Both the position numbers and the translations under genes were made by a program. Positions 7,401 through 37,492 of a DNA stretch of 64,000 bases are shown in pieces. The stretch comes from a virus: IMG/VR virus record IMGVR_UViG_3300035698_006717, positions 1-64,000 of that record. One strand, given 5' to 3'. The first letter of the stretch is position 1. Each line of letters begins with the position of its first letter. Below the pieces are notes generated by a model that saw only the letters and a program-made list of their open reading frames with translations, was not told the origin of the DNA and ran no database searches.

Positions 7401-10138
7401 AGAATTTAGAAGATCTGAAAAATAAAAGGCTGAAGGATGAGGATGCAGTATATGTTGCGCAAGTCCAAACTGTTGCTAATGTTGCTGTTGCTGTTGGAGG
7501 ATTTGCAAGAACTATATTTGAAGAAATAAGTGGTACGACAGATGAGCTTACTGGAAAGATATTGGATAGTGCACAAGGTTTTGTCTCTGCTATAGCAGAA
7601 GGCTCTAAAGGTGGAGTTGTAGGTGCTGTCATAGGTGCTGCTACTGCAGTTGTTGTTGAAAGTATCAAGGCTATAAAATTTAACATGGAATTTGCAGATA
7701 AAGCTCTGGCTGCTCAAAAAGCTGCCGCTCTTGCTGCTGCTCAAGACTTACGGGAACTTGGAGTTGCTACACAGAAATTGAATAGAGATTTTACTTCATT
7801 TGCATCAGATATATTAGGCTTAGGCTCTAGTGAGCAAAGCTCTAATGATGCAGTAGATATAGCAGGTGAGAAATATACAGAATCTTTCACAGCTATACCA
7901 GGATTTGAAGATTATGATATAGAGGGAGCTTTTGATGAGCTATTTTCAAATGCCAAGATAGATGAAAATGGATTGGGCACAGTTACAGGTATATTTGACT
8001 CACTGTTCAGTAAGCTGCTTGACCCAGCTTCATTAATTCCTGTGTCTGGAGGAAGCGGCCCTGCTACAAGCGCTGATGGTACTGTTATAGGAACAGGGGT
8101 GCAAGTATCTAGAGGTGATAATCCAAATGATATATATTTTGAGTCAGAGTTTTTAAGGAATATAACCAACCTACTTTCACAGGTTGCCCCAGATGATCAG
8201 CTTGGAGCAGCTACTGCATTCTCTGAATTTGCTGGTACATATCTGTTGAATTCATTCCGAACTGAATTATATGCTCCTATAAATGCTATCTCTTCTGATT
8301 GGTCTGTTACTACTGATGAATTTATAGATGCAGTAAGTACTATGAGAGGTAGTATTGAAACCCTGCCTAGTTTTGTAAGTGATCTTGGCCCTAATATACA
8401 AAATGCACTAGCTGGTGATTTTAAAGTCCTAGCAGATTTAGAGTTCAACAAGAAGAGAGATAGAGCAATAGAGGGTGGCAACACTGATGCTATTGAAGGA
8501 ATTTTTGATCAATATGAAAATAGCTTGCTTACTATCCTTAATAAATTTCCAAACGTAACAGGATCTACAAGACTTTCTATAAATGACTTATTGACTCAGC
8601 TGCCAGGTCAAGAGGCTGCTGCATTAGCAGCATCTTCAGTACCTGCAGAATCTCCATTAGATCTAAGTGAAGTAACTGCTGCTGCAGATAAAATAGTTGA
8701 TGCCTTTACTGATGGGTACATAACATGGGAGGAAGCTAATCAGAAATTAGGTATTCTGAGGGATGCTGTTGATCAACTACCTGCTGGTATGCAAAAAGAA
8801 TTTGATGATATGTTAGATAGTATGTCCCTACTGCTAAGGAAAAGTGTTGGCGATAGGTTAGCTGAAGCGCAGAGCATACAAGGTGATATATCAGGTGAGA
8901 CAGATACATATAATGAAGATCTTGCAGGAATTGCTGAGGATACTGCTGATGTTATAAAAACTTGGAATGACCTTTTAGATAAGAGATCTGATATAATTAG
9001 TAAGTTTGAATCTGATGCTGCCAAGCTAGAGACTGATTCTTCTGATAGAGTAAGCGCATTAGAAGCTGAGAAGGCTGCTATAGTCGGAGTATTTGATTTT
9101 AGCGAGACACAAAGTAAAAGGTCTAAGAGGTTTGCTGATGCTAGAGGAGTTGAAAATAAAATACTTGAAGAAATTATAACTACACAGCTAAAGCTAAGTG
9201 ACCTTACTGAAAAGTTTGAATCTGATCTTGAAAAAGTTGGAGAAAAGATTACTGACCTTAAAGTAGAATATGGAAGTATAGAAGGTGTATATGAGCACTT
9301 TGCCAGTATTAGGGCTACAAGGGAAGCAGAGTATGTTGACTTCCTAACTACTCAGATTAGTTTACTTGAAACACTATTAGGACACCAGTTAGACTTAGGG
9401 CCAAATCCTCAGAATAGTATGGGTAGTGATTCTGAACTAGGTTCTCATATAGCAGGTATGGATTTGTCTAATGAGTTTCCTGATGTTGGTGATGTTGATA
9501 CTGATGCTAAATTAGCAGCAGTAGATGCCTTAGATGAATCTATTAGTAAGATAGTAGGGCCAATTGATCCATATAGCGGTGGCGCTGGTGGTGATACTAC
9601 TGGTAGACCTGAACCTGGTCCAGAAGGTATAGCAACTGTTGATGCATTTGGCGAAGAAGTACCACGTGGTACACATGTCCCAAATTTTATCTCACAATCA
9701 TTAATACCAACCAGAACAGACTTTGGAGAGACTGATGCTGTTGGTGCTGTTGCTCCAGTGTTTGATTTTAGTCAGCCAACTCCATTCCCTACTAGCGGTA
9801 GTAGTGTTAATAGCATGATAGAGAATGAGATGAATAATATACCTGCTGCTAATGGATTTAGTGGGATTGTAAGCAAGCCTACTCGGTTCCTAGCTGGTGA
9901 AGGTAGATTTCCTGAGATGGTGAATATAGATCCTTTAGATGGTATTCATGATTCTGCTCAAGGGTTAGGTAAAGGTGCAGGTACTACAATTGTACAAAAT
10001 GTTAACTTAGATTTAAGAGGGGCATACGGAGTAGACAATCCTGATATTGCTCAGAAGGTATGGAATAGAGTTTGGGAACCTGCAAGAAGAAGAACAATCA
10101 ATAGAGTTCTTAATGTCAGAGGTAAGGTAACAAGATGA
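4478..10138 (+). CDS. Tape measure protein
   Basis: 1886 residues. The N-terminal 350 residues match the TMP family core: helical, with the stretch around residues 95-125 (GQSTIFGATKAAEGLLVLS) and Gly/Ala-rich helices holding many Thr, Ser and Lys. Hydrophobic segments occur at about residues 387-470 and 990-1067, as expected for the part that can insert into the host envelope during DNA entry. The middle and late parts are long charged coiled coils (roughly 500-700, 850-990 and 1450-1620). The C-terminal 60 residues are basic. It spans the tail lumen and sets tail length: at about 0.15 nm per helical residue this predicts a tail near 280 nm. Its stop overlaps the next start (ATGA). Confidence 0.93.
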   Translation: MAQVTVGTILAKLVLDQTQFKAALGGAGAATKQMGGSLNRLSNGFQGMSTELFRASAVLTGMSAGLIALNKSIATVALGYNKNMTIIKAVTDASGEEMERMGMIAREMGQSTIFGATKAAEGLLVLSRMGLKASQSMQVLSPAMKLAQGQQSDMTATTELLVQQLKAFGKETDSADSFANVLAATSSKTAADLTKLSTALSFAGPIAKLAGLSFEEVNATLGLMFNAGIKASRAGTSLRFAIAALLGATSKSAKALGRLGLTVKDVNPNLNSMEDILKTLATRLEGTSEKAQIIFDIFGKRAAPAMGAVLNAVLKNADAFSDLETSITGTNEVQRQFAEQQNSFFGQVNLLKTSLEGLAIEFGEVLLPTFQKGIEILKVLIKSFKEMPDFVKKAIAGFVVFATVGTTLLAALTALAFSISTLIGLATTLGPYLAGIALALGTSLGPITLVVGAIGLLTAGLIAFNVAAGIQKEKTEALAESVGSLNDSYVKAASALEAAEKKRFNARGYDQIIAAEKELDKARKDARTALDQLVTKHPQVIASYDMMTGEIDLNAEAIRNLTAARKASVLEEQDFYEVVKKNLENEISQMKSIIKLSGEKRSRAKQTQEEKEFTLEDRTRDKDIGGPAMGMAWDAAKRDTKEAKEEYENINTVYTESVAKLRSLQKELAGLKDPTESASMVSGELSEEIDGLGDKSEKTITRLTSLIDKIRDLEVELKQASEQSDIDFGLINADDFSKSLAKLDEKFGNQLESFQKKATKAGDRLAKALQGRDEDGKIINQKDVDEATAALADVTSEMTAFKDNQSVLVDAMKEKLITDYFDEIEAKSLDTQAVIESTNASLATDLETRMAGELVAIKLRHAAEVKQIKERIKLQMLYIKTASVNPDTDPRVSAMLKEQLIALEAEQAALEMENAAEVSEFKINSANTVNKIIDDGILKHHKSRVDNEKAVLKETKRQISALEEARDSGVKIDLKNLEDLKNKRLKDEDAVYVAQVQTVANVAVAVGGFARTIFEEISGTTDELTGKILDSAQGFVSAIAEGSKGGVVGAVIGAATAVVVESIKAIKFNMEFADKALAAQKAAALAAAQDLRELGVATQKLNRDFTSFASDILGLGSSEQSSNDAVDIAGEKYTESFTAIPGFEDYDIEGAFDELFSNAKIDENGLGTVTGIFDSLFSKLLDPASLIPVSGGSGPATSADGTVIGTGVQVSRGDNPNDIYFESEFLRNITNLLSQVAPDDQLGAATAFSEFAGTYLLNSFRTELYAPINAISSDWSVTTDEFIDAVSTMRGSIETLPSFVSDLGPNIQNALAGDFKVLADLEFNKKRDRAIEGGNTDAIEGIFDQYENSLLTILNKFPNVTGSTRLSINDLLTQLPGQEAAALAASSVPAESPLDLSEVTAAADKIVDAFTDGYITWEEANQKLGILRDAVDQLPAGMQKEFDDMLDSMSLLLRKSVGDRLAEAQSIQGDISGETDTYNEDLAGIAEDTADVIKTWNDLLDKRSDIISKFESDAAKLETDSSDRVSALEAEKAAIVGVFDFSETQSKRSKRFADARGVENKILEEIITTQLKLSDLTEKFESDLEKVGEKITDLKVEYGSIEGVYEHFASIRATREAEYVDFLTTQISLLETLLGHQLDLGPNPQNSMGSDSELGSHIAGMDLSNEFPDVGDVDTDAKLAAVDALDESISKIVGPIDPYSGGAGGDTTGRPEPGPEGIATVDAFGEEVPRGTHVPNFISQSLIPTRTDFGETDAVGAVAPVFDFSQPTPFPTSGSSVNSMIENEMNNIPAANGFSGIVSKPTRFLAGEGRFPEMVNIDPLDGIHDSAQGLGKGAGTTIVQNVNLDLRGAYGVDNPDIAQKVWNRVWEPARRRTINRVLNVRGKVTR

Positions 10139-17173: not shown

Positions 17174-18769
17174 ATGGAAAACTTGATTGAGTACAAACGT
17201 ATCCTTTTTGGGTTTACGTCAGAGGGTGATGACAAGAGGATAATGGCATTCCAAGATGGCGGTAGCAAGGAGAGCCTATCTAATTCTAGTTTCAATTCAA
17301 ATGAAGAAGCTATTAACTTTATTATATGGGAAGGTGATTTATATGCTCTAGTGACTACAACATCAGAAGGTAGATTACTAAAGTTGTCAAATATAAATAC
17401 TGGTTCTGCTGATACTTGGGAAGAAGTTGTTGGGTATGTAGTTCTGAATGAGAGACTTGATGATTTTGTTTACCAAGCTAACTCAATAGTTATATTTGGA
17501 GCAACTAAGGTATGGGAGTTTGATGGTGATAATGCCATTGTTATAGATTCCATGCCAGGCAACCTGACAATATACTCTACTATATATTACCAGAGGAATG
17601 TTTATATATTTGGAGAGTACAATTCTACACAAGCTCTCTATAGTTGGAATGTAGATGATGGATTCATATCTTTAGATACTTCTGCTGATCTTATGGATTT
17701 GACAGGGAATTATAATCCGTATGGTAAGAAGCTGATCACTGAGTATATGGGCAAAATATACTATCTGTTTCTGATAGAGATTGCTGCTGTAGAATTAACG
17801 CTGAGATCATATAACCCATCTACTGGCCTGATTGTTAGTGAATATGTGTATGGAGATTTGTATGAAATTGCTACATCTTTGATAACATATGAAGGAATGA
17901 TTGTTCCAGTAACTTTTAATACTGACCAGTATTCAGCTAGTGTGAAAATTTTTATACCTGTAAAGTATGAAGTTGAGAACTCTCTAGTATCTGGTGATGG
18001 TGATGTAGCAGAGGCTCTGCTGAAAGTAGAATCTGATCCAATCTTTTCCAATAGGACTAAATCTTTGAGCGGTATACCAGCCTTTGATACTTTCCCTATA
18101 GTAGGAGTATTAAAGGGTAAGTTTGGGTATGCATTCAAATATGGGCATAGGCCTGAATTTTATACTGAGCTTACTAATGTAGATGCATTGCTTGACTTGA
18201 ATCTAAAAACTTTGATGGATGAACTTTGTAGCATGACTAACAATACTCTTAGTGTTGATGGTAGTAATACTGCAACTATTGCTAGTAGAGATGTAGTTGG
18301 TTATCCTAATAAGTTCAAGGAATATAATCTCAGTACTGATTATGGTGATGAGTACATAAGCAAAATAGTAGAAAGTGAAGCATACCCTAATAACTTTAGA
18401 AGGATTGTGATAAATTGGAGTAATGCAAAATGGGATACAAATAATCCCGTTGCAATTGGCTCAGTAGCTTCCCTAGGTAACGTATTTGAATTTGATTCAG
18501 TTCTGATAAATGATCCTAAGACTGCTCTGAATATAGCAAGGGTTCTGCTGAAGCAATTAGTATCTGTTGGCCAATTAGAGACTGTACTGTCCTTGGCTTA
18601 TTATCTTGAGAATTCTGATAACATTACTTATAATGTATCTGATGAATTCCTGTATATTGACAAGACTATTGAATATAAATTGTATAAGGTAATCCATAAT
18701 ATCAATAACATGACTACTACTTTGGTTGTTGTTGAAAGAATTCTTAGTGATGAGAAGGAGCTGATATAA
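17174..18769 (+). CDS. Tail-tip protein with propeller-like N-terminus
   Basis: 531 residues, one base after the previous stop. Residues 1 to about 250 show repeated units of hydrophobic strands ending in Trp or Tyr followed by Gly-Asp (LYALVTTTSEGRLLKL, VWEFDGDNAIVIDSM), suggesting a beta-propeller. The C-terminal 240 residues differ: a helix LKTLMDELCSMTNNTLSVD, then strands, resembling the hub-type domains that many siphovirus tail proteins carry just after the distal tail protein. I cannot name the family from motifs. It probably forms part of the tail tip together with its neighbours. Confidence 0.55.
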   Translation: MENLIEYKRILFGFTSEGDDKRIMAFQDGGSKESLSNSSFNSNEEAINFIIWEGDLYALVTTTSEGRLLKLSNINTGSADTWEEVVGYVVLNERLDDFVYQANSIVIFGATKVWEFDGDNAIVIDSMPGNLTIYSTIYYQRNVYIFGEYNSTQALYSWNVDDGFISLDTSADLMDLTGNYNPYGKKLITEYMGKIYYLFLIEIAAVELTLRSYNPSTGLIVSEYVYGDLYEIATSLITYEGMIVPVTFNTDQYSASVKIFIPVKYEVENSLVSGDGDVAEALLKVESDPIFSNRTKSLSGIPAFDTFPIVGVLKGKFGYAFKYGHRPEFYTELTNVDALLDLNLKTLMDELCSMTNNTLSVDGSNTATIASRDVVGYPNKFKEYNLSTDYGDEYISKIVESEAYPNNFRRIVINWSNAKWDTNNPVAIGSVASLGNVFEFDSVLINDPKTALNIARVLLKQLVSVGQLETVLSLAYYLENSDNITYNVSDEFLYIDKTIEYKLYKVIHNINNMTTTLVVVERILSDEKELI

Positions 18770-19822
18770 ATGGCACTAACTCTTATTGATACAGTAACTC
18801 CGTTTATTACTGCAGGTTTGTTTTATGATGGAGCTAGATTTTATGCAAATCACCTTAATGATGGTTTACATTTGTATACTATGGGTGGTGGGGCTTTATC
18901 CGAAGCAGACTCAATAGATGATGGTGGAGTATATCACGGGCTATTTGTAGATGGTGAATTTATATATACTGCTAATCTTAGTGAAATTAGAGCATACAAG
19001 AGGACATTGCTAAATTTGGCTATTGTAGATACTGAGTCTACTGGTAGTAATATAGTTGATATTGTTAGATATAAGAATTATATTGTATCAGTGTCAACTA
19101 GTAGTGGTTTATATGCTCATACTTTTGATGGTACTACTCTGACTTATGTTGATAATTTTAATAGTGCCGTACTTATTGGCCAAGTTGGGTCTATTACTGC
19201 TGATGATGATTACATATATGTATCAGCTGCAGGATTTGCCTTTCAAAGTTTAAGTCGTTTCACCATTAATGGTGGAGTTATAACATTTGTCGATAGTGTT
19301 GATACTAGTTCTGCTGGTCGTGGAGTTTGTACAGATAAAAATTATGTAGGAGCTGCCTCTGTAACAACAGGGTTAGATGTGTTTAGGAAAACATCTGGAT
19401 CATTAGTTCATCTTGCAAATATAGATGATGGTGATAGTTATGATAGAGTAGCTAATATTGGTAGGTATTTTTTCTGTTCAATAAATACTGGTGATATTAG
19501 AGTGTATCAGCTGTCTGCTGACGAGACTAGCCTTGCTGCTGTTACTGATACTTCAATTGCTGGAGCTAGTCCTGTTATATTTGCTGGTGGCTCTTTCTTA
19601 TTAGCTGGTGACTCTACAGGTGGGGATGAAGAGTGGAGACTTTATAGCATGCCTGAGCTGAAACAGATTATCAATAGTGTGAAACCTTATAATGGTATGC
19701 TGTGTTTTGCTTCTGAGAATTCTTTGTATGATGGATTATTTGCTCATAGGTTAGATCGTGAAGCATTCAGCGGCGATGATCTTATACAATTAATAGAAGA
19801 CACTTCAGGGGAGAATTTATAA
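18770..19822 (+). CDS. Beta-propeller tail protein
   Basis: 350 residues, directly adjacent to the previous gene with AAGGAG ten bases before the ATG. Five or six repeats of about 45 residues are visible, each with a pattern such as DDDYIYVSAAG, KNYIVSVSTSSG or GRYFFCSINTGD followed by a strand containing a Tyr or Phe and a turn Gly. This is typical of LVIVD/YVTN-like seven-bladed propellers. No enzymatic residues are apparent. It probably acts as a rigid binding module at the tail tip or fibre base. Its stop overlaps the next start (TAATG), so it is translationally coupled to the fibre gene. Confidence 0.6.
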   Translation: MALTLIDTVTPFITAGLFYDGARFYANHLNDGLHLYTMGGGALSEADSIDDGGVYHGLFVDGEFIYTANLSEIRAYKRTLLNLAIVDTESTGSNIVDIVRYKNYIVSVSTSSGLYAHTFDGTTLTYVDNFNSAVLIGQVGSITADDDYIYVSAAGFAFQSLSRFTINGGVITFVDSVDTSSAGRGVCTDKNYVGAASVTTGLDVFRKTSGSLVHLANIDDGDSYDRVANIGRYFFCSINTGDIRVYQLSADETSLAAVTDTSIAGASPVIFAGGSFLLAGDSTGGDEEWRLYSMPELKQIINSVKPYNGMLCFASENSLYDGLFAHRLDREAFSGDDLIQLIEDTSGENL

Positions 19823-21756
19823 TGTCGCTTTATACACAGGATTACGGTGGTTACACCCTCCCCTATAAGGAGAAGACCCCCGAACGGTATCAGGTTGAGG
19901 ACACGCTGTATAGGGCCTTGATAGATGCATTAGGAAGTGGTCTAAGCGGTTCGGGTACTATTAATACTATACCAAAGTTTACTCCTGATGGAACAACTCT
20001 TGGTGATTCTATTATTTCTGATTTCAATGGTAGGGCAACAGTAGCTGGTTCGCTTACAAGTAACCAAGATGTTGATATTGGAGATTCGTCAGGATTCGTT
20101 CATAATATTAATTTTCTAACTAGCTCTGTTAATGGTTTCCTTAGATGGTATCAGACAGGTGCTTCACCTTATAATCCTGCTTTTCAGTTATCAGATAATT
20201 TAATTATTGGTAAGGGTAGTGCTGCCACAGATTACAAGCTAGTGTTTCTTGGGAATGGTGGCCAAGGAGAAGTGTGGTGGATGAATACCGCCCAACATTT
20301 TAGGTTTAGTACCGCTGCACTTGGTGATGTTGGTATGGGTTTCTATGGTGGATCTAATTCTGGACTATTTACATGGATGGAGGATGAAGACTATTTCCAG
20401 TTTGCAGATGACATTTTAATGTCCACTAGTGAGAAGATTTATTTTCGCAATACTAATGTATATATTAGTTCTCCAATTGCGGATTACCTTCAGATTGACG
20501 GAAGTACCTATGTAGGCATTGAAGCCGACACTTCTATTGACTTTACAATAGGTGGTAGTACAGTAACCCAACAGAAATCAAACTACTTACTTGTTGGTAG
20601 TGGTGCTTTAGCACAAGGCTCACCAACGAATGTTAACTATACTCCGCTGATGGTTGGATCACAAGGTAATGCTAAAGTAACAGAGGATTTGATTGAGATT
20701 CTAAGGACTGTTAGGTCTACTGATATGGCAGACACTGGTACTGGGATATTATTTTCCCAGTATTATTATGATGCAGTTACTCCAGCAAGAGCTGCTGCTG
20801 GAAGAGTTGCAGTAGTAACGGATGGCAACTGGACATCTACTGCATCAACCCGTGAGTCTAGATTATCTCTGCAGGTAGCCAAGGCTGGATTGCTTACGGA
20901 AATGGTTTCAATAAATAGCTCTGGCTCTACAGTAACTGGATCGCTTACTTGGTCATCATCTAATTTCATAGCAGATAATGCATCTCACACTTTAATCTTA
21001 AGGAGTACTTCAGCGTCTAGTGCTGATTATGGGCAGCTATATTTAGCAGGAGGTGGATTGCCATCAAAGGCTCGCGGTTCTTATATACACCTTGCTGGCA
21101 TTAATGCTTCTCTTACACCAGGGCAAGTAACTGTTGTTGCAGGTGCAAATGGCAATATTGTTTTCAATACTTCTAAAATAACCTCTGCTACAAAGGTATC
21201 ATTTACTAATGGACTGTCTGCTGAAGTGGCTCATATTGACGCTGCAGGGAATATATTTGCTGTCGGTATAATGAATGTATCTCAGGTTACTGCTGGGACA
21301 GGATCTTATTATCTTGGGTCTCTGAAAGATCTAGCTCATGGCATAACTGATTATTTACCAACTGATGCTTTCTATAAGATAGCTCCTGCTAATGCAACTG
21401 GTGGCGGATGTATAATTACTACTGCTACAGAGCAAGATGTATCAAATGCTACACCGATGACTATGCGCGGAATACTTGGTGTTGAATGTAGCGATGGAAC
21501 TCTTGAGCCTACATTTGTTATGGATGGAGCAAGGAAAAGCGGGGCAAGCATAGCAGCATTGACTGTTAGCGATATTCTGCAGATTAAGAATTCAGGAACA
21601 ACTAAGTTGGCTATAGATAAGGAAGGTATACTGGCATTTAAGGGAACTATGGGGAATTCCACTTTAGACCCTACAACTGATAGTGCTGAGGATTGGATAG
21701 AGGTTGTGATTGGAACAACAACTTATTTTGTACCAGTATATTCACAATCCGTATGA
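19822..21756 (+). CDS. Tail fibre protein
   Basis: 644 residues. The N-terminal 40 residues (YGGYTLPYKEKTPERYQ) look like an attachment segment. They are followed by GSGTINTIPKFTPDG, a start common in phage fibre shafts, and then by Gly/Ser/Thr/Asn-rich repeats with strand-turn periodicity. The C-terminal part is globular beta. I do not see an S74 chaperone motif. The first 90 bases are richer in C and G than the rest of the gene. It closes the tail-tip block and is the best candidate for the receptor-contacting fibre. The gene ends in ATGA, overlapping the glycosyltransferase-like gene. Confidence 0.65.
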   Translation: MSLYTQDYGGYTLPYKEKTPERYQVEDTLYRALIDALGSGLSGSGTINTIPKFTPDGTTLGDSIISDFNGRATVAGSLTSNQDVDIGDSSGFVHNINFLTSSVNGFLRWYQTGASPYNPAFQLSDNLIIGKGSAATDYKLVFLGNGGQGEVWWMNTAQHFRFSTAALGDVGMGFYGGSNSGLFTWMEDEDYFQFADDILMSTSEKIYFRNTNVYISSPIADYLQIDGSTYVGIEADTSIDFTIGGSTVTQQKSNYLLVGSGALAQGSPTNVNYTPLMVGSQGNAKVTEDLIEILRTVRSTDMADTGTGILFSQYYYDAVTPARAAAGRVAVVTDGNWTSTASTRESRLSLQVAKAGLLTEMVSINSSGSTVTGSLTWSSSNFIADNASHTLILRSTSASSADYGQLYLAGGGLPSKARGSYIHLAGINASLTPGQVTVVAGANGNIVFNTSKITSATKVSFTNGLSAEVAHIDAAGNIFAVGIMNVSQVTAGTGSYYLGSLKDLAHGITDYLPTDAFYKIAPANATGGGCIITTATEQDVSNATPMTMRGILGVECSDGTLEPTFVMDGARKSGASIAALTVSDILQIKNSGTTKLAIDKEGILAFKGTMGNSTLDPTTDSAEDWIEVVIGTTTYFVPVYSQSV

Positions 21757-30630: not shown

Positions 30631-30665
30631 ACTGGAGGGTAGTTGCTTGCCCTCCAGTTTTCTTC
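30631..30665 (+). terminator. Rho-independent terminator
   Basis: Perfect nine-base stem ACTGGAGGG / CCCTCCAGT with a ten-base loop, followed by TTTTCTT. One of the clearest intrinsic terminators in the window. The sequence TCTTCACATTTAA just after it is repeated after the hairpin pair at 54008-54044. Confidence 0.9.
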
Positions 30666-30684: not shown

Positions 30685-31188
30685 ATGCTAACTTTAGTAG
30701 AAGGTTTGAATTGTAGTGGTAAGACTACATATATAAAAAATCACAAATCACAAGTAATAGATACTTGGTATGCAAACCCACTAAGATGGGACAACTCAAA
30801 GAATTTGCTTATGGGTTCTTTAGAGAAGAAGGAATATTATGGCATAGGCGTATATGAAACTATACTGAGAATGTTCCTCAGCTCATATAGTGCACCAGAT
30901 TATTATTGGGATAGAACTTGGATATCAGCTTATGTATATAAGACTTTGACAAAACCTTCTTTTGATTTTATTTCTGACTTATACTGTGAAAATTGTGTAA
31001 AGGTTATTTGGCTAGATACAAATCCTTTTATCTGTAAGGATAGGTGGGAAGCAGAGAACAAGAAAGATGAAAAGGATTATGTTGTTAATTTTGATTGGAA
31101 GGGGTTGAGAGATGAATTTGAAACTGTAATGACAGAGTTAGATAAAATGGGGATGAATGTTGAAGTAATAACAAACTATGGAGTATGA
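30685..31188 (+). CDS. P-loop nucleotide kinase (thymidylate kinase-like)
   Basis: 167 residues from the ATG at 30685, which has AAAGGA upstream; an open frame begins at 30643 but that lies inside the terminator. Walker A VEGLNCSGKTT spans residues 5-15. WDRTWIS in the middle is the DR motif of thymidylate-kinase-type enzymes, and VIWLDTNPFICKDRWE supplies the lid and arginine region. It likely phosphorylates a deoxynucleoside monophosphate, and the next gene is ThyX, so thymidylate is the natural substrate. A 5-hydroxymethyluracil DNA kinase, known from phages with hypermodified thymidine, is an alternative for this fold. Confidence 0.75.
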   Translation: MLTLVEGLNCSGKTTYIKNHKSQVIDTWYANPLRWDNSKNLLMGSLEKKEYYGIGVYETILRMFLSSYSAPDYYWDRTWISAYVYKTLTKPSFDFISDLYCENCVKVIWLDTNPFICKDRWEAENKKDEKDYVVNFDWKGLRDEFETVMTELDKMGMNVEVITNYGV

Positions 31189-31189
31189 A

Positions 31190-32020
31190 ATGAAAAGATT
31201 CACATCAGGGAAGTTCCCTAAGTTGTCTGTATTATTGTATGCGCCTCCTATCTTCCCAGAGAAGGTTATAGCGCATAACTATCTTGAGTGTATTGAAGAT
31301 CGCCAGATAGATGATCCTACTGAGATTGATCTTGATGAAGCCAAGAAGATAACTGAATGGGTTATTAAAGGCGGCCATACTCCTGCTCTAGAGAGTTTGT
31401 ATATGGGGTTCAATATTAGAGGAATGAGTAAAGTAGTTTCTCACCAGATAGTACGGCATCGGATAGGGGTAAGTATAGGACAGAGGACACAAAGGGCTAA
31501 CTCAAAAGAGTACCTTGGCAAGTTTGCAGATGGAGAGCATTATATATTGCCTCCAAGTATAACTCTTGACACTTGTACTATTGACCCCAAAACGCAAGAG
31601 AATTTGAGAGAGTACCTGCAAGCTGCTCAAGATATATATAATGAATTGATTGAGCAAGGAGTATCTGAGGATGAGGCCAGATATATCATACCGCAAGGTG
31701 CAGAGACTTCTATGGACTTCAATATAATATTGAAAGCACTTATGGGAACAGCATCTACAAGATTATGCCATCTTATGCAGGGAGAGATGGTTGAAGTATT
31801 CCGATTGATTAAGAAAGCGGTTGATGATTGGCACCCTGGTATTGGTAGCCTTCTAAAACCTATTTGTATGGTAACAGGTAAGTGCAACCGTAATGAGAAT
31901 AATCCTATTGATGGCCATCCCCACGGAGTATGTGAGCTTACTGTTCGTGGATTGGTACCGCCAAGGGAAAAGGATGACACCTTCAACTTAACAAAGTATA
32001 GCAAAGATGCCGACAAGTAA
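31190..32020 (+). CDS. thyX: Flavin-dependent thymidylate synthase
   Basis: 276 residues from the ATG at 31190, which has GGAG six bases before it; the ATG at 31178 overlaps the kinase gene more and has no site. The ThyX signature is visible as RHRIGVSIGQRTQR near residues 88-101 (RHR-x7-S/T-x-R, with Thr in place of the usual Ser). Flanking motifs are HTPALESLYMGFNIRGMSK upstream and a C-terminal HPGIGSLLKPIC. It methylates dUMP to dTMP using methylene-tetrahydrofolate, NADPH and FAD. It is translationally linked to the kinase gene, forming a dTMP/dTTP supply unit. The last residues include two extra Cys (CMVTGKC). The gene ends four bases before the tRNA. Confidence 0.92.
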   Translation: MKRFTSGKFPKLSVLLYAPPIFPEKVIAHNYLECIEDRQIDDPTEIDLDEAKKITEWVIKGGHTPALESLYMGFNIRGMSKVVSHQIVRHRIGVSIGQRTQRANSKEYLGKFADGEHYILPPSITLDTCTIDPKTQENLREYLQAAQDIYNELIEQGVSEDEARYIIPQGAETSMDFNIILKALMGTASTRLCHLMQGEMVEVFRLIKKAVDDWHPGIGSLLKPICMVTGKCNRNENNPIDGHPHGVCELTVRGLVPPREKDDTFNLTKYSKDADK

Positions 32021-32024
32021 ACAA

Positions 32025-32106
32025 GGGAATATGGCGGAACTGGTAGACGCTGAGGATTTAAAATCCTCTAGCCTAGGCTGTGGGGGTTCGACTCCCCCTA
32101 TTCCCA
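32025..32106 (+). tRNA. tRNA-Leu (UAA anticodon)
   Basis: Acceptor GGGAATA (32025-32031) pairs with TATTCCC (32099-32105), discriminator A at 32106, no encoded CCA. Anticodon stem GAGGA/TCCTC (52-56/64-68 of the 32000s) encloses the loop TTTAAAA with anticodon TAA (32059-32061). A long variable arm (AGCC TA GGCT) and T arm GGGGG-TTCGACT-CCCCC are typical of a class II leucine tRNA. It reads UUA and probably UUG. It starts four bases after the ThyX stop and ends three bases before the Rossmann strand of the next protein. Confidence 0.97.
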
Positions 32107-32108
32107 AA

Positions 32109-33344
32109 ATCATAATATTGGGAGCTGGCCCATCTGGTCTTATTGCTGCAAATTATTTGAAGTCTAAAGATATAGATTTCAAAATTATAGCAAAGGATGG
32201 GCACGGGTTCTCTAACATATCTACTCATGACTTCAAGTTTAAACTTGGTCAACGTACTATGTTCTATACTGATAGGATGCATAGCTTCCTTGAAGAGATG
32301 AACAATTATGCTGTTGAAAGTATGAATTTGAGTGATAGTATTGGTGTTGTATTTAAGGGAAAGTTGCACAAGTATCCTATACAGAATAATTTGAAGACAC
32401 TATCAATTAAAGATAGGCTGAGTTTCTTCATTAGCTATATTTTCAGGAGTAAGACAAAAGAATCTGATTATGCAAATTGGTCTTGTGCTAACTACGGTAA
32501 TTGGTTTGCTAACAACATACTACTTCCTCATACAAATAAAACTCTTAAAGAGGATTTGTATACTATTAATGCAGAATCGTATGGGAAGAAAGTTGTCAAG
32601 CTTGAATTGCTGAAGAAGAAAAGTAATTTGGCATTTGAAGAGCCTGATAAGATTCTTGCAAGGTTAAGAAAGAATGTTGAAATTCACATACAAGATGAAT
32701 TAGTTACAAGTATTGATACTAAATGCAAACAAGTTAGCCTTCAGTATAAGGGATGTGCTAGATTTGAAGATTATGATATACTGATAAATACTATTCCTAT
32801 ACTATCACTTATAGATCTGATGGAGTATCAGAATGATATCATAGAAGTAGCTACTAAAAGCCTTCAGTATAACAATATGTTTGCTGGAGTATTCATTATG
32901 CCGACTGCTATGATAAAAACTGATATGAGTATCATATACTTCCCAGAGAGAGATTACACTTTCTCAAAAGTCAATATAGATAGGCGTAATGGAATAACTG
33001 TTATAGTGTGTGAGTGTTCATTCAGAAGGAATGATGAGGACAAGTTTTCCTGTACTGCTTACAAAGAGAAGTTCCTTGAGCGCATAGAGTATGATTTGAA
33101 GAAGGCAAGATTGATAAGTAGTGATATGTTTGTATCTATTCAGAGAGATTATAAGATCATATCGCCTTGCTACATTATTACTGATAAGGATTACAATGCA
33201 AGTAATTCCTTCCTACAAGCTCACTTTGAGCACAAGGGCATTTTCAATTGCGGTAGATTCTCACAGTGGGTACCATGGATGAGAGTAGAACATAGCTTAG
33301 AAAGGATGGATAGTATATATGACAGTATTCTCAGGAGAATGTGA
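32109..33344 (+). CDS. FAD-dependent oxidoreductase, UDP-galactopyranose mutase / amine oxidase-like
   Basis: About 411 residues; the start is not resolved. The frame continues upstream through the whole tRNA. The dinucleotide fold IIILGAGPSGLIAANYL begins three bases after it, so initiation must use a rare codon (ATT 32100, ATC 32109, ATA 32112/32115, TTG 32118) or the ATG at 32031 inside the tRNA. I place it at 32109. The C-terminus GIFNCGRFSQWVPWMRVEH is the FAD-ribityl binding end typical of UGM/protoporphyrinogen-oxidase-like flavoproteins. A substrate-binding domain with LINTIPI lies between. Substrate unknown; position after ThyX and a kinase allows a role in DNA base or sugar modification. 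Confidence 0.75.
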   Translation: MIILGAGPSGLIAANYLKSKDIDFKIIAKDGHGFSNISTHDFKFKLGQRTMFYTDRMHSFLEEMNNYAVESMNLSDSIGVVFKGKLHKYPIQNNLKTLSIKDRLSFFISYIFRSKTKESDYANWSCANYGNWFANNILLPHTNKTLKEDLYTINAESYGKKVVKLELLKKKSNLAFEEPDKILARLRKNVEIHIQDELVTSIDTKCKQVSLQYKGCARFEDYDILINTIPILSLIDLMEYQNDIIEVATKSLQYNNMFAGVFIMPTAMIKTDMSIIYFPERDYTFSKVNIDRRNGITVIVCECSFRRNDEDKFSCTAYKEKFLERIEYDLKKARLISSDMFVSIQRDYKIISPCYIITDKDYNASNSFLQAHFEHKGIFNCGRFSQWVPWMRVEHSLERMDSIYDSILRRM

Positions 33345-33525
33345 TGGCTGTGGGAATTTAACCACTACATATTGCAATGGTAGCTTAGTGCTGAGAAAGA
33401 TTGTGAAAGTGGTAAGAGGTCTATTTATTGAAGATAGAATAATATTCTGTCCAGTGTGTGCCAAGGAAGGTAAGAAGATGATCAAGGCTCACAATCGTAA
33501 GATGAGGGGAATAGATGTCAAATAA
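33319..33525 (+). CDS. Small zinc-ribbon protein
   Basis: 68 residues, overlapping the flavoprotein gene by 26 bases and the polymerase gene by 11. Two Cys pairs, CDGC (residues 8-11) and CPVC (near 46), flank a short beta hairpin, which forms a zinc ribbon. The basic C-terminus (KKMIKAHNRKMRG) suggests nucleic acid contact. Function unknown; coupling to the DNA polymerase gene is close. Confidence 0.65.
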   Translation: MTVFSGECDGCGNLTTTYCNGSLVLRKIVKVVRGLFIEDRIIFCPVCAKEGKKMIKAHNRKMRGIDVK

Positions 33526-36500
33526 AGATTTTGCACATATCCATTTGCATACTGAGTTCAGCTTCCTAGATGGGTTCAGTAAGGTATGGGATGATGACCA
33601 TAAAGAGCCGTCTGACTTGCCTTTACGCATAGCAGAGATAGGCCAGAAGTATTGCGCCATAACTGATCACGGTTCTACTGCTGGTTGGATTAGATTTGAT
33701 AAGGCTATGAAGAAAGTTGGTGTATCTCCTCTATTTGGTGTAGAGGGATATTACTGTGATGATATGAGTGTTAAGGGATTAGATGAAACTAGAAAGCTAG
33801 ATGCTACCAGAGGATTAACTAATGCCAAGGAAAAGAAAGCTGCCACTAAGAAGATGGAAAAGGAGTTGGGGCTAAATAAGAGAGCGCACTTTGTAGCCTT
33901 GGCTATGAATGCTGATGGCATACAAGAAATATTGAAGTCAACTTCCATAGCTGCAACAGAAGGATTCTATTACAGGCCAAGATGGGATTTTAGCCTAATA
34001 AAGAGTATGAAGAATTGCATCATAGGAACAGCTTGTGCTGGTGGCATTCTAAACTATTGGTGCAACAGAGAAGACCTGCCTATGAAGGAACGCTTACAGA
34101 TGGCTGTGAGAGAGGCTAAGAAATGGAAAGATGAATTAGGCGATAGGTTTTATCTTGAATTGCAATCCATAGATTGGTCAAGACAGACCAAGTATAATAA
34201 GTTTATTTGGAAGATAGCTCAGCATTTAGATTTGCCTTGCTACCTTGCTAATGACTCACATTATGTTAAGGCAGAGGACTGGGAAGCTCATGATATTCTT
34301 TTGGCAATACAGTCGGCTCACGGAGTACCTTCAAAGGATGCTCTGAATAATCCTGATAGGCTTAGATATGATATGCATGATCTATATGTCAAGACTAGGA
34401 AGGAAATGGCTCAGAGCTTTCTTGCTAGAAATGATGTAGATATATATGGTAAGAGTAACATATCAAAAATGTTAGACTGTACACTTGAGATAGCAGAGCG
34501 TTGCCATCATTCTGTGAATAAGAAGAAAATGATCATGCCTGCAATAGAGGTTCCTGATTTTGCTAAGTTGGATAAAACAAAAACTACTGATGATGATAGA
34601 AAGAATTATTTGAAGTATTTGTGCAAAGAGGGATGGCAGAGAAAAATTGTCCCTTATGTATCCAAGAAGGATAGAGTAGTATACAAAGAGAGACTGAAGG
34701 AAGAACTTTATCAGATCATTAGCCAAGGGTTTACCCCTTACTTCATTATGTGTAATGGTCTGATGAAATGGTCTGATGAGAAGGGCATAGCAAGAGGCCC
34801 TGCGCGTGGTAGCTCTGCTGGCTCCCTAGTAGCATACCTGTTAGATATAGTAATGGTAGATCCAATTCCTCACAAGCTATTGTTTAGTAGGTTTATTGAT
34901 CCAAACCGTACTGACTATCCAGATGTTGATATGGACTTTGGGGATTGGAGAAGGGGAGTGATTGTCCAATACTTTGTTGAGAAGTATGGCAAGGAGAAGG
35001 TTGCTATTCTTGGTAACAATATGACCTTCAAACCTAAGATGGCTCTCAAGGATGTTGCTAGGCTATATGGAGTTCCTATATTTGAAACACAAGAGCTTTG
35101 CAATTTAGTTGTGAATAGATCTGGAGCAGATAGTAGGCTGAGTTTCTGCGTTAAGGATACTTTTGATCAGCATGAGTTTGCTAAGGAATATGCTAGGAAG
35201 TATCCCAAGGTGGCAAAATTCTCTCAGCAGCTAGAAGGGCTAAAGAAGATACAGGGAGTACATGCTGCTGGAGTAGTTATAGCGGATGGAGACATAACTC
35301 AGTATACATCTATGAGATATGACAAAAGACAAAAGGACTTCCTAATTGCTACCATAGATAGGTATGACTGTGAAGATATAGGTCTACTAAAGATGGATAT
35401 ATTGGGATTGAATACTATGTCTGTACTTCAAGAGTGCCGTGTACTTATAAAGGAAAGGCACGGAGTATGGATAGACTTTGAGGAATTATGTAGAGATGTC
35501 ACATATAAAGGTGGAGATAAGAAAACATATGAGGCATTTGCTGACGCAAGGACTACTGGTATATTCCAGTTCAATAGCCCTGGCCTGACTCGTTTAGCCA
35601 AGCAAGTGAAGATAGAGAACTTTGATGAGATAAGTGACTGTACAGCCTTACACAGACCTGGCCCAATTCACGCTGGAGCTATGAATAGGTATCCTGCCCT
35701 AAAGAGTGGTGAGTTGGAGAAGTTTGACCCTTTGCACAAGATTGTAGAGGAAGAAACGCAAGACACCTATGGGCTAGTTATCTATCAAGAGCAGGTTATG
35801 CAGATAGTAAGGCGGTTGGGTAAGTTTGATTGGGCCCAAACAAATACAGTTCGTAAGGTTATGAGTAAGTCTGGTGGAGCAGAATACTTTATGACCAACT
35901 TCTGGCCTACCTTTAAGAATGGCTGTGCTGATGAAGGATTGGATGAAAAGACTGCCCTAAAGATATTCCATAGAATTATGAGCTTTGGATCATGGGCCTT
36001 CAATAAGTCACACTCTATCTCGTATGCGTTTGTTTCTTACTTTTGTATGTATATGAAGGTAAACTATCCCATAGAGTTCTGTACTGCTTATATGAATAAG
36101 GTAAATGATACAAGCGGTGAGAATGTACCTAAGATGGTGTTGGAGGCTCAGAGATTAGGGATCGGTATGAGAGAACCTGACATCAATATATCCAAGAGTG
36201 GATTTGTTATTGAGGGAAATACTATTGTATCAGGGCTGAGTAAGATAAAGAATGTAGGAGCAAAAGCTGTTGTTACTATATTGGAAAATCAGCCGTTTGA
36301 TGGTATTGTAGATTTTCTGATTAAGATAGACAATCGTGCTTGCAATAAAAGATCTGTAGAGAACTTGGTTAAGGCAGGAGCTTTTGATTCATTTGGTTAT
36401 GATAAGGGAGCTTTACTAGAGAATGTTGAAGCAATACTGAAGAATGTCAAGAAGGGTAATGATAAAAGCCTCAATATTGCTAAAGAGTTTGTAGATGGAT

Positions 36501-37492
36501 GTATGGGGGAAGAGAGCTTATCTGAGCAGCAAGTAGCTGAGCTTAAAACTGGGGTTTCCCCAGTATCAGTAGGTAAGCATATAACTAGATATTATGATGA
36601 TGTTGTAGATAGTTTAGCATCTCATGTTAGAGTTACTAGGCTTATTGACATAGAGTTAGATGATGCTGCACAAGTACAGCAGCAGCAACAAGAGAACCAA
36701 TCTCAAGTTAAGAGATTAGATGTATGGATAACAGGTCTATTGACTCATGTTGACTTGAAAAGGTTATCGCAGGAGGTCAAGGAAGTTATTGATACTGGCA
36801 AGGAAGAAAGATATGCGTTATGTAATCTAGAGGATGGTACAGACTTCATAGTATTATCTCTCAAGAAAGGCATATATACAAAATATGAGCAGGAACTGTT
36901 CAACTTTATGGGGAAGGTTGTTCTAGTTAGAGGAACTGTGAATAAGGGTTGGAAGAAATGTTTTGTTGATACCATATATATAATGGATGATTTGAGAGCA
37001 TACCTTGATGGTGGACACAAACCTTTCAACTATGATTATGAATATTTGTTCAAGCATCCTCTGAATAGATACTTTGATAAAAAGGGTGGGATTGCCAAGA
37101 TAAAGGCTAAGTGCGGCTGTGTTGATATGATAGATGTCACTACTCTACCAATAGGCCAGAGTATTTGGGCTATGGGGATAATATCTGATATACAAACATT
37201 TGTAGGTAGACCTACAAGTAAAATACCTGGCAAGAAATTTTACTGGATATTCTTTGAGGATGATACATTCTGTGGGAGTTTTATGGTATTCCCTACGGAT
37301 AAAAGGTTCAAGGCTATGAAGAAGGATATATTTGAATTGTATAAGTCTCACGATCCGTTCCTATTGCAGATACAAAGAGATATGAGTTTTAAGGAAGGAG
37401 ATAGACAATACAAGCAGGTATGTATATCTATTGATAAAAGATCTAGTTGGGAAGATATGATCCGTAGACCATTTAAAAGGAGGAAAAAATAA
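33515..37492 (+). CDS. dnaE: DNA polymerase III alpha subunit, DnaE type with PHP domain
   Basis: 1325 residues, close to bacterial DnaE length. PHP domain at the N-terminus: HIHLHTEFSFLDG (8-20), ITDHGS, GVEGYY and NDSHYVKAED retain the metal ligands. Palm: ARGPARGSSAGSLVAYLL near 427, PDVDMDF near 468 with the two catalytic Asp, and LLKMDILGL near 624-632 with the Lys and third Asp. Further on are the fingers, a helix-hairpin-helix region (LSKIKNVGAKAVVTIL) and an OB-fold near 1070-1160, followed by a small C-terminal domain. It replicates the phage genome. No DnaQ-type exonuclease is visible, so the intact PHP domain may proofread. A Gln run (QVQQQQQENQ) joins two domains. Confidence 0.95.
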   Translation: MSNKDFAHIHLHTEFSFLDGFSKVWDDDHKEPSDLPLRIAEIGQKYCAITDHGSTAGWIRFDKAMKKVGVSPLFGVEGYYCDDMSVKGLDETRKLDATRGLTNAKEKKAATKKMEKELGLNKRAHFVALAMNADGIQEILKSTSIAATEGFYYRPRWDFSLIKSMKNCIIGTACAGGILNYWCNREDLPMKERLQMAVREAKKWKDELGDRFYLELQSIDWSRQTKYNKFIWKIAQHLDLPCYLANDSHYVKAEDWEAHDILLAIQSAHGVPSKDALNNPDRLRYDMHDLYVKTRKEMAQSFLARNDVDIYGKSNISKMLDCTLEIAERCHHSVNKKKMIMPAIEVPDFAKLDKTKTTDDDRKNYLKYLCKEGWQRKIVPYVSKKDRVVYKERLKEELYQIISQGFTPYFIMCNGLMKWSDEKGIARGPARGSSAGSLVAYLLDIVMVDPIPHKLLFSRFIDPNRTDYPDVDMDFGDWRRGVIVQYFVEKYGKEKVAILGNNMTFKPKMALKDVARLYGVPIFETQELCNLVVNRSGADSRLSFCVKDTFDQHEFAKEYARKYPKVAKFSQQLEGLKKIQGVHAAGVVIADGDITQYTSMRYDKRQKDFLIATIDRYDCEDIGLLKMDILGLNTMSVLQECRVLIKERHGVWIDFEELCRDVTYKGGDKKTYEAFADARTTGIFQFNSPGLTRLAKQVKIENFDEISDCTALHRPGPIHAGAMNRYPALKSGELEKFDPLHKIVEEETQDTYGLVIYQEQVMQIVRRLGKFDWAQTNTVRKVMSKSGGAEYFMTNFWPTFKNGCADEGLDEKTALKIFHRIMSFGSWAFNKSHSISYAFVSYFCMYMKVNYPIEFCTAYMNKVNDTSGENVPKMVLEAQRLGIGMREPDINISKSGFVIEGNTIVSGLSKIKNVGAKAVVTILENQPFDGIVDFLIKIDNRACNKRSVENLVKAGAFDSFGYDKGALLENVEAILKNVKKGNDKSLNIAKEFVDGCMGEESLSEQQVAELKTGVSPVSVGKHITRYYDDVVDSLASHVRVTRLIDIELDDAAQVQQQQQENQSQVKRLDVWITGLLTHVDLKRLSQEVKEVIDTGKEERYALCNLEDGTDFIVLSLKKGIYTKYEQELFNFMGKVVLVRGTVNKGWKKCFVDTIYIMDDLRAYLDGGHKPFNYDYEYLFKHPLNRYFDKKGGIAKIKAKCGCVDMIDVTTLPIGQSIWAMGIISDIQTFVGRPTSKIPGKKFYWIFFEDDTFCGSFMVFPTDKRFKAMKKDIFELYKSHDPFLLQIQRDMSFKEGDRQYKQVCISIDKRSSWEDMIRRPFKRRKK

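Follow-up and report, generated by a model that had tools for sequence, protein, structure and literature searches.

A tRNA-Leu gene lies over the expected coding start of a flavoprotein gene in a tailed phage

In the phage DNA analysed here, a complete tRNA-Leu(UAA) gene occupies the place where the coding sequence of a flavoprotein would be expected to begin, on the same strand, and no suitable start codon follows it. We favour, with somewhat better than even confidence, the reading that the tRNA gene displaced the start of the flavoprotein gene, that translation now begins at AUG 32031 and yields a protein with a tRNA-encoded tail, and that tRNA processing beheads the message. The window, that is the whole stretch of DNA analysed, is the first 64 kb (64,000 nucleotides) of a 105,409-base virus record (IMG/VR IMGVR_UViG_3300035698_006717). 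The source virus is a tailed phage, as its tape-measure, helicase, primase, DnaE, UvsX-like and SbcCD-like proteins indicate. The features of the region are the following.

31178..32020, + strand: thyX-like gene (FAD-dependent thymidylate synthase); Pfam Thy1, E 6.5e-29
32007 to 33344, + strand: open flavoprotein ORF, its frame unbroken across the whole tRNA
32007..32009, + strand: first in-frame ATG of the flavoprotein ORF, which thereby overlaps the end of thyX by 14 nt; without Shine-Dalgarno (SD)
32023..32027, + strand: AAGGG, SD-like, 3 nt before ATG 32031; -5.3 kcal/mol
32025..32106, + strand: tRNA-Leu(UAA), complete cloverleaf; ARAGORN and Rfam RF00005
32031..32033, + strand: in-frame ATG inside the tRNA (positions 7-9, acceptor stem); favoured start
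32106..33341, + strand: flavoprotein body, K34-M445 of the ORF; FAD-binding, UDP-galactopyranose-mutase/PPOX-like fold
32118..32120, + strand: TTG before GxGxxG, encoding the last beta-1 residue; SD +1.8
33319..33525, + strand: small cysteine-rich ORF overlapping the end of the flavoprotein gene; ordinary SD, -7.8
33515..37492, + strand: DNA polymerase III alpha (DnaE) gene, next in the cluster; NCBIfam PRK05673, E 4.8e-229

The tRNA gene matched RF00005 over model positions 1-71 of 71 with 58.2 bits (gathering score 29; E 5.3e-12) and was delimited by ARAGORN to 32025-32106, which bears out an initial annotation that had set a tRNA-Leu on the start of the flavoprotein gene. Above the Rfam threshold and with a cloverleaf, it also has what identifies it as tRNA-Leu(UAA), namely the anticodon taa, a long variable arm with a 10-nt insertion (agccuaggcu) and discriminator A; CCA is not encoded. 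Fully folded, it has a computed energy of -34 kcal/mol, and it is the sole tRNA detected in the whole record. Only 4 nt separate it from the end of thyX.

SD energies were computed as the duplex with the 16S tail, the reference being 40 other genes of the phage (median -6.55 kcal/mol). The thyX-like gene, whose product scored 84.4 bits against TIGR02170, just short of the cut-off of 87.9, probably starts at ATG 31190 (-5.9, GGAG) rather than at its first ATG, 31178 (-0.5). The dnaE gene has an ordinary SD (-8.5), and thyX, ORF 33319 and dnaE each have their own start. Apart from this, the first ATG of thyX overlaps the stop codon of a kinase-like gene, and overlaps at stop codons are found throughout the genome. 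Past the tape-measure region, three long ORFs in succession, of 531, 350 and 644 aa (17174-21756), are without a PHROG match. Identity between DnaE and the best of the 80 IMG/VR relatives kept is only about 32% and, judged by this protein, the phage seems to stand alone as a lineage within the IMG/VR collection.

Coding statistics indicate that the flavoprotein ORF is a real coding sequence. The flavoprotein body runs for 412 codons without a stop, the codon score of the ORF is 0.175 (0.07-0.35 in other genes of the phage), and its other frames score negatively. The AlphaFold model (mean pLDDT 83.6, pTM 0.82) is good from about residue 31 on, with some weak loops, while residues 1-30 reach a pLDDT of only 45-62. 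Foldseek gave 4dsg as the top match (E 1.8e-25, TM 0.77 by query length), followed by 4dsh and by Aspergillus UDP-galactopyranose mutase (UGM), likewise at E about 1e-25; the predicted structure thus has the overall fold of UGM and protoporphyrinogen oxidase (PPOX). The sequence itself is more distant. The best score against NCBIfam PRK07208 was 45.7 bits for a cut-off of 389, so that the protein is, by sequence comparison, a relative of this family and not a member. Of 40 columns in which at least 85% of 42 bacterial homologues agree, it retains 22, and it thus lacks the full set of strongly conserved residues of these relatives; D79K, H83R, W309I and R321K are changed and the YPxxGG segment is absent. 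This divergence makes it unsafe to infer UGM activity. The first-position G+C of 0.37 is low beside the 0.46-0.50 of the neighbours, and the gene may have been acquired, with a changed function. The base composition and the changed positions also speak for a different history, in which the arrangement is recent and the beheaded flavoprotein gene, no longer usefully translated, is being lost. Against such decay stand the long stop-free frame and its phage-typical codon score, the FAD-site glycines and C-terminal GR..W motif, which are intact, and the good predicted fold, and we regard it as unlikely.

How closely the tRNA and the flavoprotein are joined can be read from their coordinates. The tRNA ends at 32106 and this base already opens the Lys34 codon (AAA), which leaves no gap; the sequence IIILGAGPSG, the beginning of which (IIIL, residues 35-38) is strand beta-1 in the AlphaFold model, starts at 32109, at the third base past the tRNA, as had been noted initially. 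Between the tRNA and the GxGxxG motif there is neither ATG nor GTG, and the single TTG, 32118, lies inside beta-1; the claim that no ATG, GTG or well-placed TTG exists here was therefore correct. We compared the possible, not proven, starts of 84 homologues from phages, one plasmid and bacterial genomes. In all 84, the nearest ATG, GTG or TTG was found 1-14 residues before GxGxxG; when only ATG and GTG were counted, 81 homologues had one, and the nearest was 5-11 residues before the motif in 68 of them. The closest phage proteins begin M/V-K-V-L-I-L-G-C-G-P-S-G-L-I-A-A (contig L022) and M/V-K-L-L-I-L-G-C-G-P-S-G-L-I-A-A (L025), with which K-I-I-I-L-G-A-G-P-S-G-L-I-A-A of the flavoprotein aligns. 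Because homologues start just before beta-1, the expected start of the flavoprotein falls on the 3' acceptor strand or the T-arm of the tRNA. A start at TTG 32118 would use the only ATG, GTG or TTG from the tRNA to GxGxxG; it has no SD, however, it would remove strand 35-38 from the FAD-binding fold, and the homologues, with their ATG or GTG mostly at 5-11 residues, leave room for a start before beta-1. We consider it extremely improbable.

The real anomaly is this missing start downstream of the tRNA, rather than the open frame. The frame is indeed unbroken through the entire tRNA, as first described (the preceding in-frame stop ends at 31991). We rejected the idea that this is meaningful by itself, since about 40% of the frames in tRNAs lack a stop (29 of the 72 forward frames in the 24 distinct tRNAs of the loci compared); in another phage contig, L033, a tRNA with an open frame is followed by an ordinary SD and ATG. 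Only the frame of the flavoprotein is open among the three of the tRNA-Leu, and that the sole open frame is the one used is, if due to chance, a one-in-three matter. The tRNA part of the ORF translates to the tRNA-type peptide MAELVDAEDLKSSSLGCGGSTPPIP, but the ORF is not a spurious tRNA ORF of the AntiFam kind, as a folded, coding flavoprotein lies downstream in the same frame.

The canonical in-frame choices for the flavoprotein ORF are ATG 32007, ATG 32031 and TTG 32118. The statement that the gene has no normal start codon thus stands downstream of the tRNA and fails upstream of it, where both ATGs are found. Nor is the claimed absence of a ribosome site supported: the AAGGG before ATG 32031 has a moderate energy that equals or beats those of 11 of the 40 other phage genes, although an SD as strong occurs at 18% of random positions. 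The 3-nt spacer has a precedent in the phage, GGAGGGTAG-TTG at 30643, and the 10 nt from the thyX stop to ATG 32031 suit re-initiation. What weakens this start is that SD and AUG belong to the acceptor stem of the very stably folded tRNA, the GGG of AAGGG being tRNA positions 1-3; they would be accessible only to ribosomes that come ahead of the folding. A conserved N-terminal extension was present in no relative compared.

AUG 32007 lies outside the tRNA fold, and ribosomes could initiate there without an SD, by translational coupling at the overlapped stop of thyX, giving a 33-residue extension. Gene overlaps at stop codons are common in this genome; yet the SD energy of ATG 32007 (-0.4) is weaker than those of all 40 genes compared, and in thyX, whose ATG 31178 looks like a twin case, ATG 31190 with its SD is the likelier start. 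Initiation there seems quite unlikely to us. Other starts at the 3' end of the tRNA would be non-canonical: ATT 32100, ATC 32109, ATA 32112 or ATA 32115 would give a protein of normal length, e.g. fMet-IILGAGPSG. AUU starts occur in bacteria, in infC and pcnB. These codons sit 2-7 residues before GxGxxG, and ATT 32100 (-7) is within the 5-11 range of the homologues. However, the ATC and ATA sites, like the TTG, have no SD (+0.4 to +2.2), the GGGGG before ATT 32100 belongs to the T-stem of the tRNA and is about 13 nt off, ordinary ATGs are present upstream, and no such start has been shown elsewhere in this phage; we find this solution improbable. Since ATG 32007 and ATG 32031 are in frame, the gene does not qualify as one with a start other than AUG, GUG or UUG, and initiation at a non-AUG codon, though possible, need not be invoked. 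Among the options listed initially, a tRNA placed over the old start is thus the best reading, in agreement with the spacing in the homologues and with the N-termini of L022 and L025, and a non-AUG start is unneeded. It is also possible that a sequencing or assembly error hides an ATG; such an error would need to have removed exactly three bases, or a multiple, or the frame would be lost. Two further ideas were rejected: that the tRNA contains a new promoter, as promoter-like sites are no commoner than in shuffled sequences, and that the processed downstream RNA is translated leaderless, as it would begin AAAUCAUAAU, without a start codon.

In the favoured reading, displacement of the start by the tRNA, the geometry and the N-termini are observed, and the tRNA-Leu gene would have come onto the 5' end of the flavoprotein gene, taking the place of the start codon and ribosome site that this gene once had. 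The gene would have survived because the one open frame of the tRNA was joined to it. Translation would most likely start at AUG 32031 within the tRNA, AUG 32007 being the second choice, with the help of AAGGG and of ribosomes that have just finished thyX 10 nt upstream; a ribosome at the end of thyX would sit over the first tRNA bases and could impede both folding of the tRNA and RNase P. The flavoprotein would then carry 25 (or 33) tRNA-encoded, probably disordered residues ahead of beta-1. Conversely, RNase P and 3' processing would cut at 32024/32025 and 32106/32107, and the remaining coding RNA would be without a usable start, so that each transcript would serve as either tRNA or flavoprotein message. 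As thyX, the small ORF and dnaE have their own starts and SDs, processing should silence the flavoprotein only. Competition between tRNA processing and translation, already proposed in the initial annotation, would follow from this geometry. That the overlap is a working either/or switch, in which tRNA folding and RNase P oppose translation coming from thyX and the flavoprotein level reports tRNA maturation, is in our opinion very doubtful. If the favoured reading is true and the tRNA works, it overlaps fully, on the same strand, with the coding start that a conserved enzyme needs, one RNA cannot be both at once, and this phage transcript offers a simple natural case of translation and tRNA maturation in competition. 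Genes arranged in this way will be misplaced or missed by gene callers that mask tRNAs.

Searches of viral contigs with the flavoprotein, with ThyX, with DnaE (single sequence and alignment) and with T-arm-plus-GAGPSG, GAGPSGLIAA and tRNA patterns returned neither the same arrangement nor a close relative, nor a relative without the tRNA, and phage and plasmid records yielded only distant flavoproteins. Eight T-arm-plus-Rossmann matches were dismissed as chance, as a real tRNA is present at just one of them (L012) and none of the eight leads into a flavoprotein. A same-strand tRNA over a phage gene start was not found in the literature covered by a word-based, incomplete search, nor was a tRNA wholly inside the N-terminal frame of a conserved enzyme without a downstream start found in the material searched.

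Several known cases resemble parts of the arrangement. In mycobacteriophage Fionnbharth, described in a paper on lysogeny, tRNA-Lys-TTT overlaps gene 37, so that, as here, the same DNA belongs to a functional phage tRNA gene and to a gene for a protein; the two are on opposite strands, however, and with an antisense tRNA one transcript need not serve as both (PMC10865867). The annotated CDS VPHD479_0370 of Vibrio phage D479 (L189 7749-8030) runs into the 5' end of tRNA_0002, and both are on one strand, as here; unlike here, the overlap is 10 nt long, at the stop end of a CDS for a hypothetical protein, and none of the 29 tRNAs annotated in that region has a same-strand CDS start inside. The IMG/VR phage L033 has a tRNA-Lys directly before a small ORF (HAD-like by eye) upstream of dnaE (9372-9995; also in contig L034), with the frame open through the tRNA, but this ORF has an ordinary AAAGGA and an ATG 11 nt past the tRNA, and nothing is missing. 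Spurious ORFs derived from tRNAs are known from AntiFam (PMC9710616), and the tRNA part here gives a peptide of that type, which is fused in frame, unlike those, to a real 412-residue flavoprotein. The flavoprotein resembles UGM, PRK07208 and PPOX in fold (4dsg) and in the positions of GxGxxG, P-x-Q-x-N and GR..W, and differs from them in being about 20% identical, in its changed conserved residues and in scores far under the NCBIfam cut-offs. Overlaps of phage tRNAs and CDSs are thus already known, and the present one appears, from its sequence, to be a variant with the tRNA over the coding start, a neat oddity and not a new kind of system.
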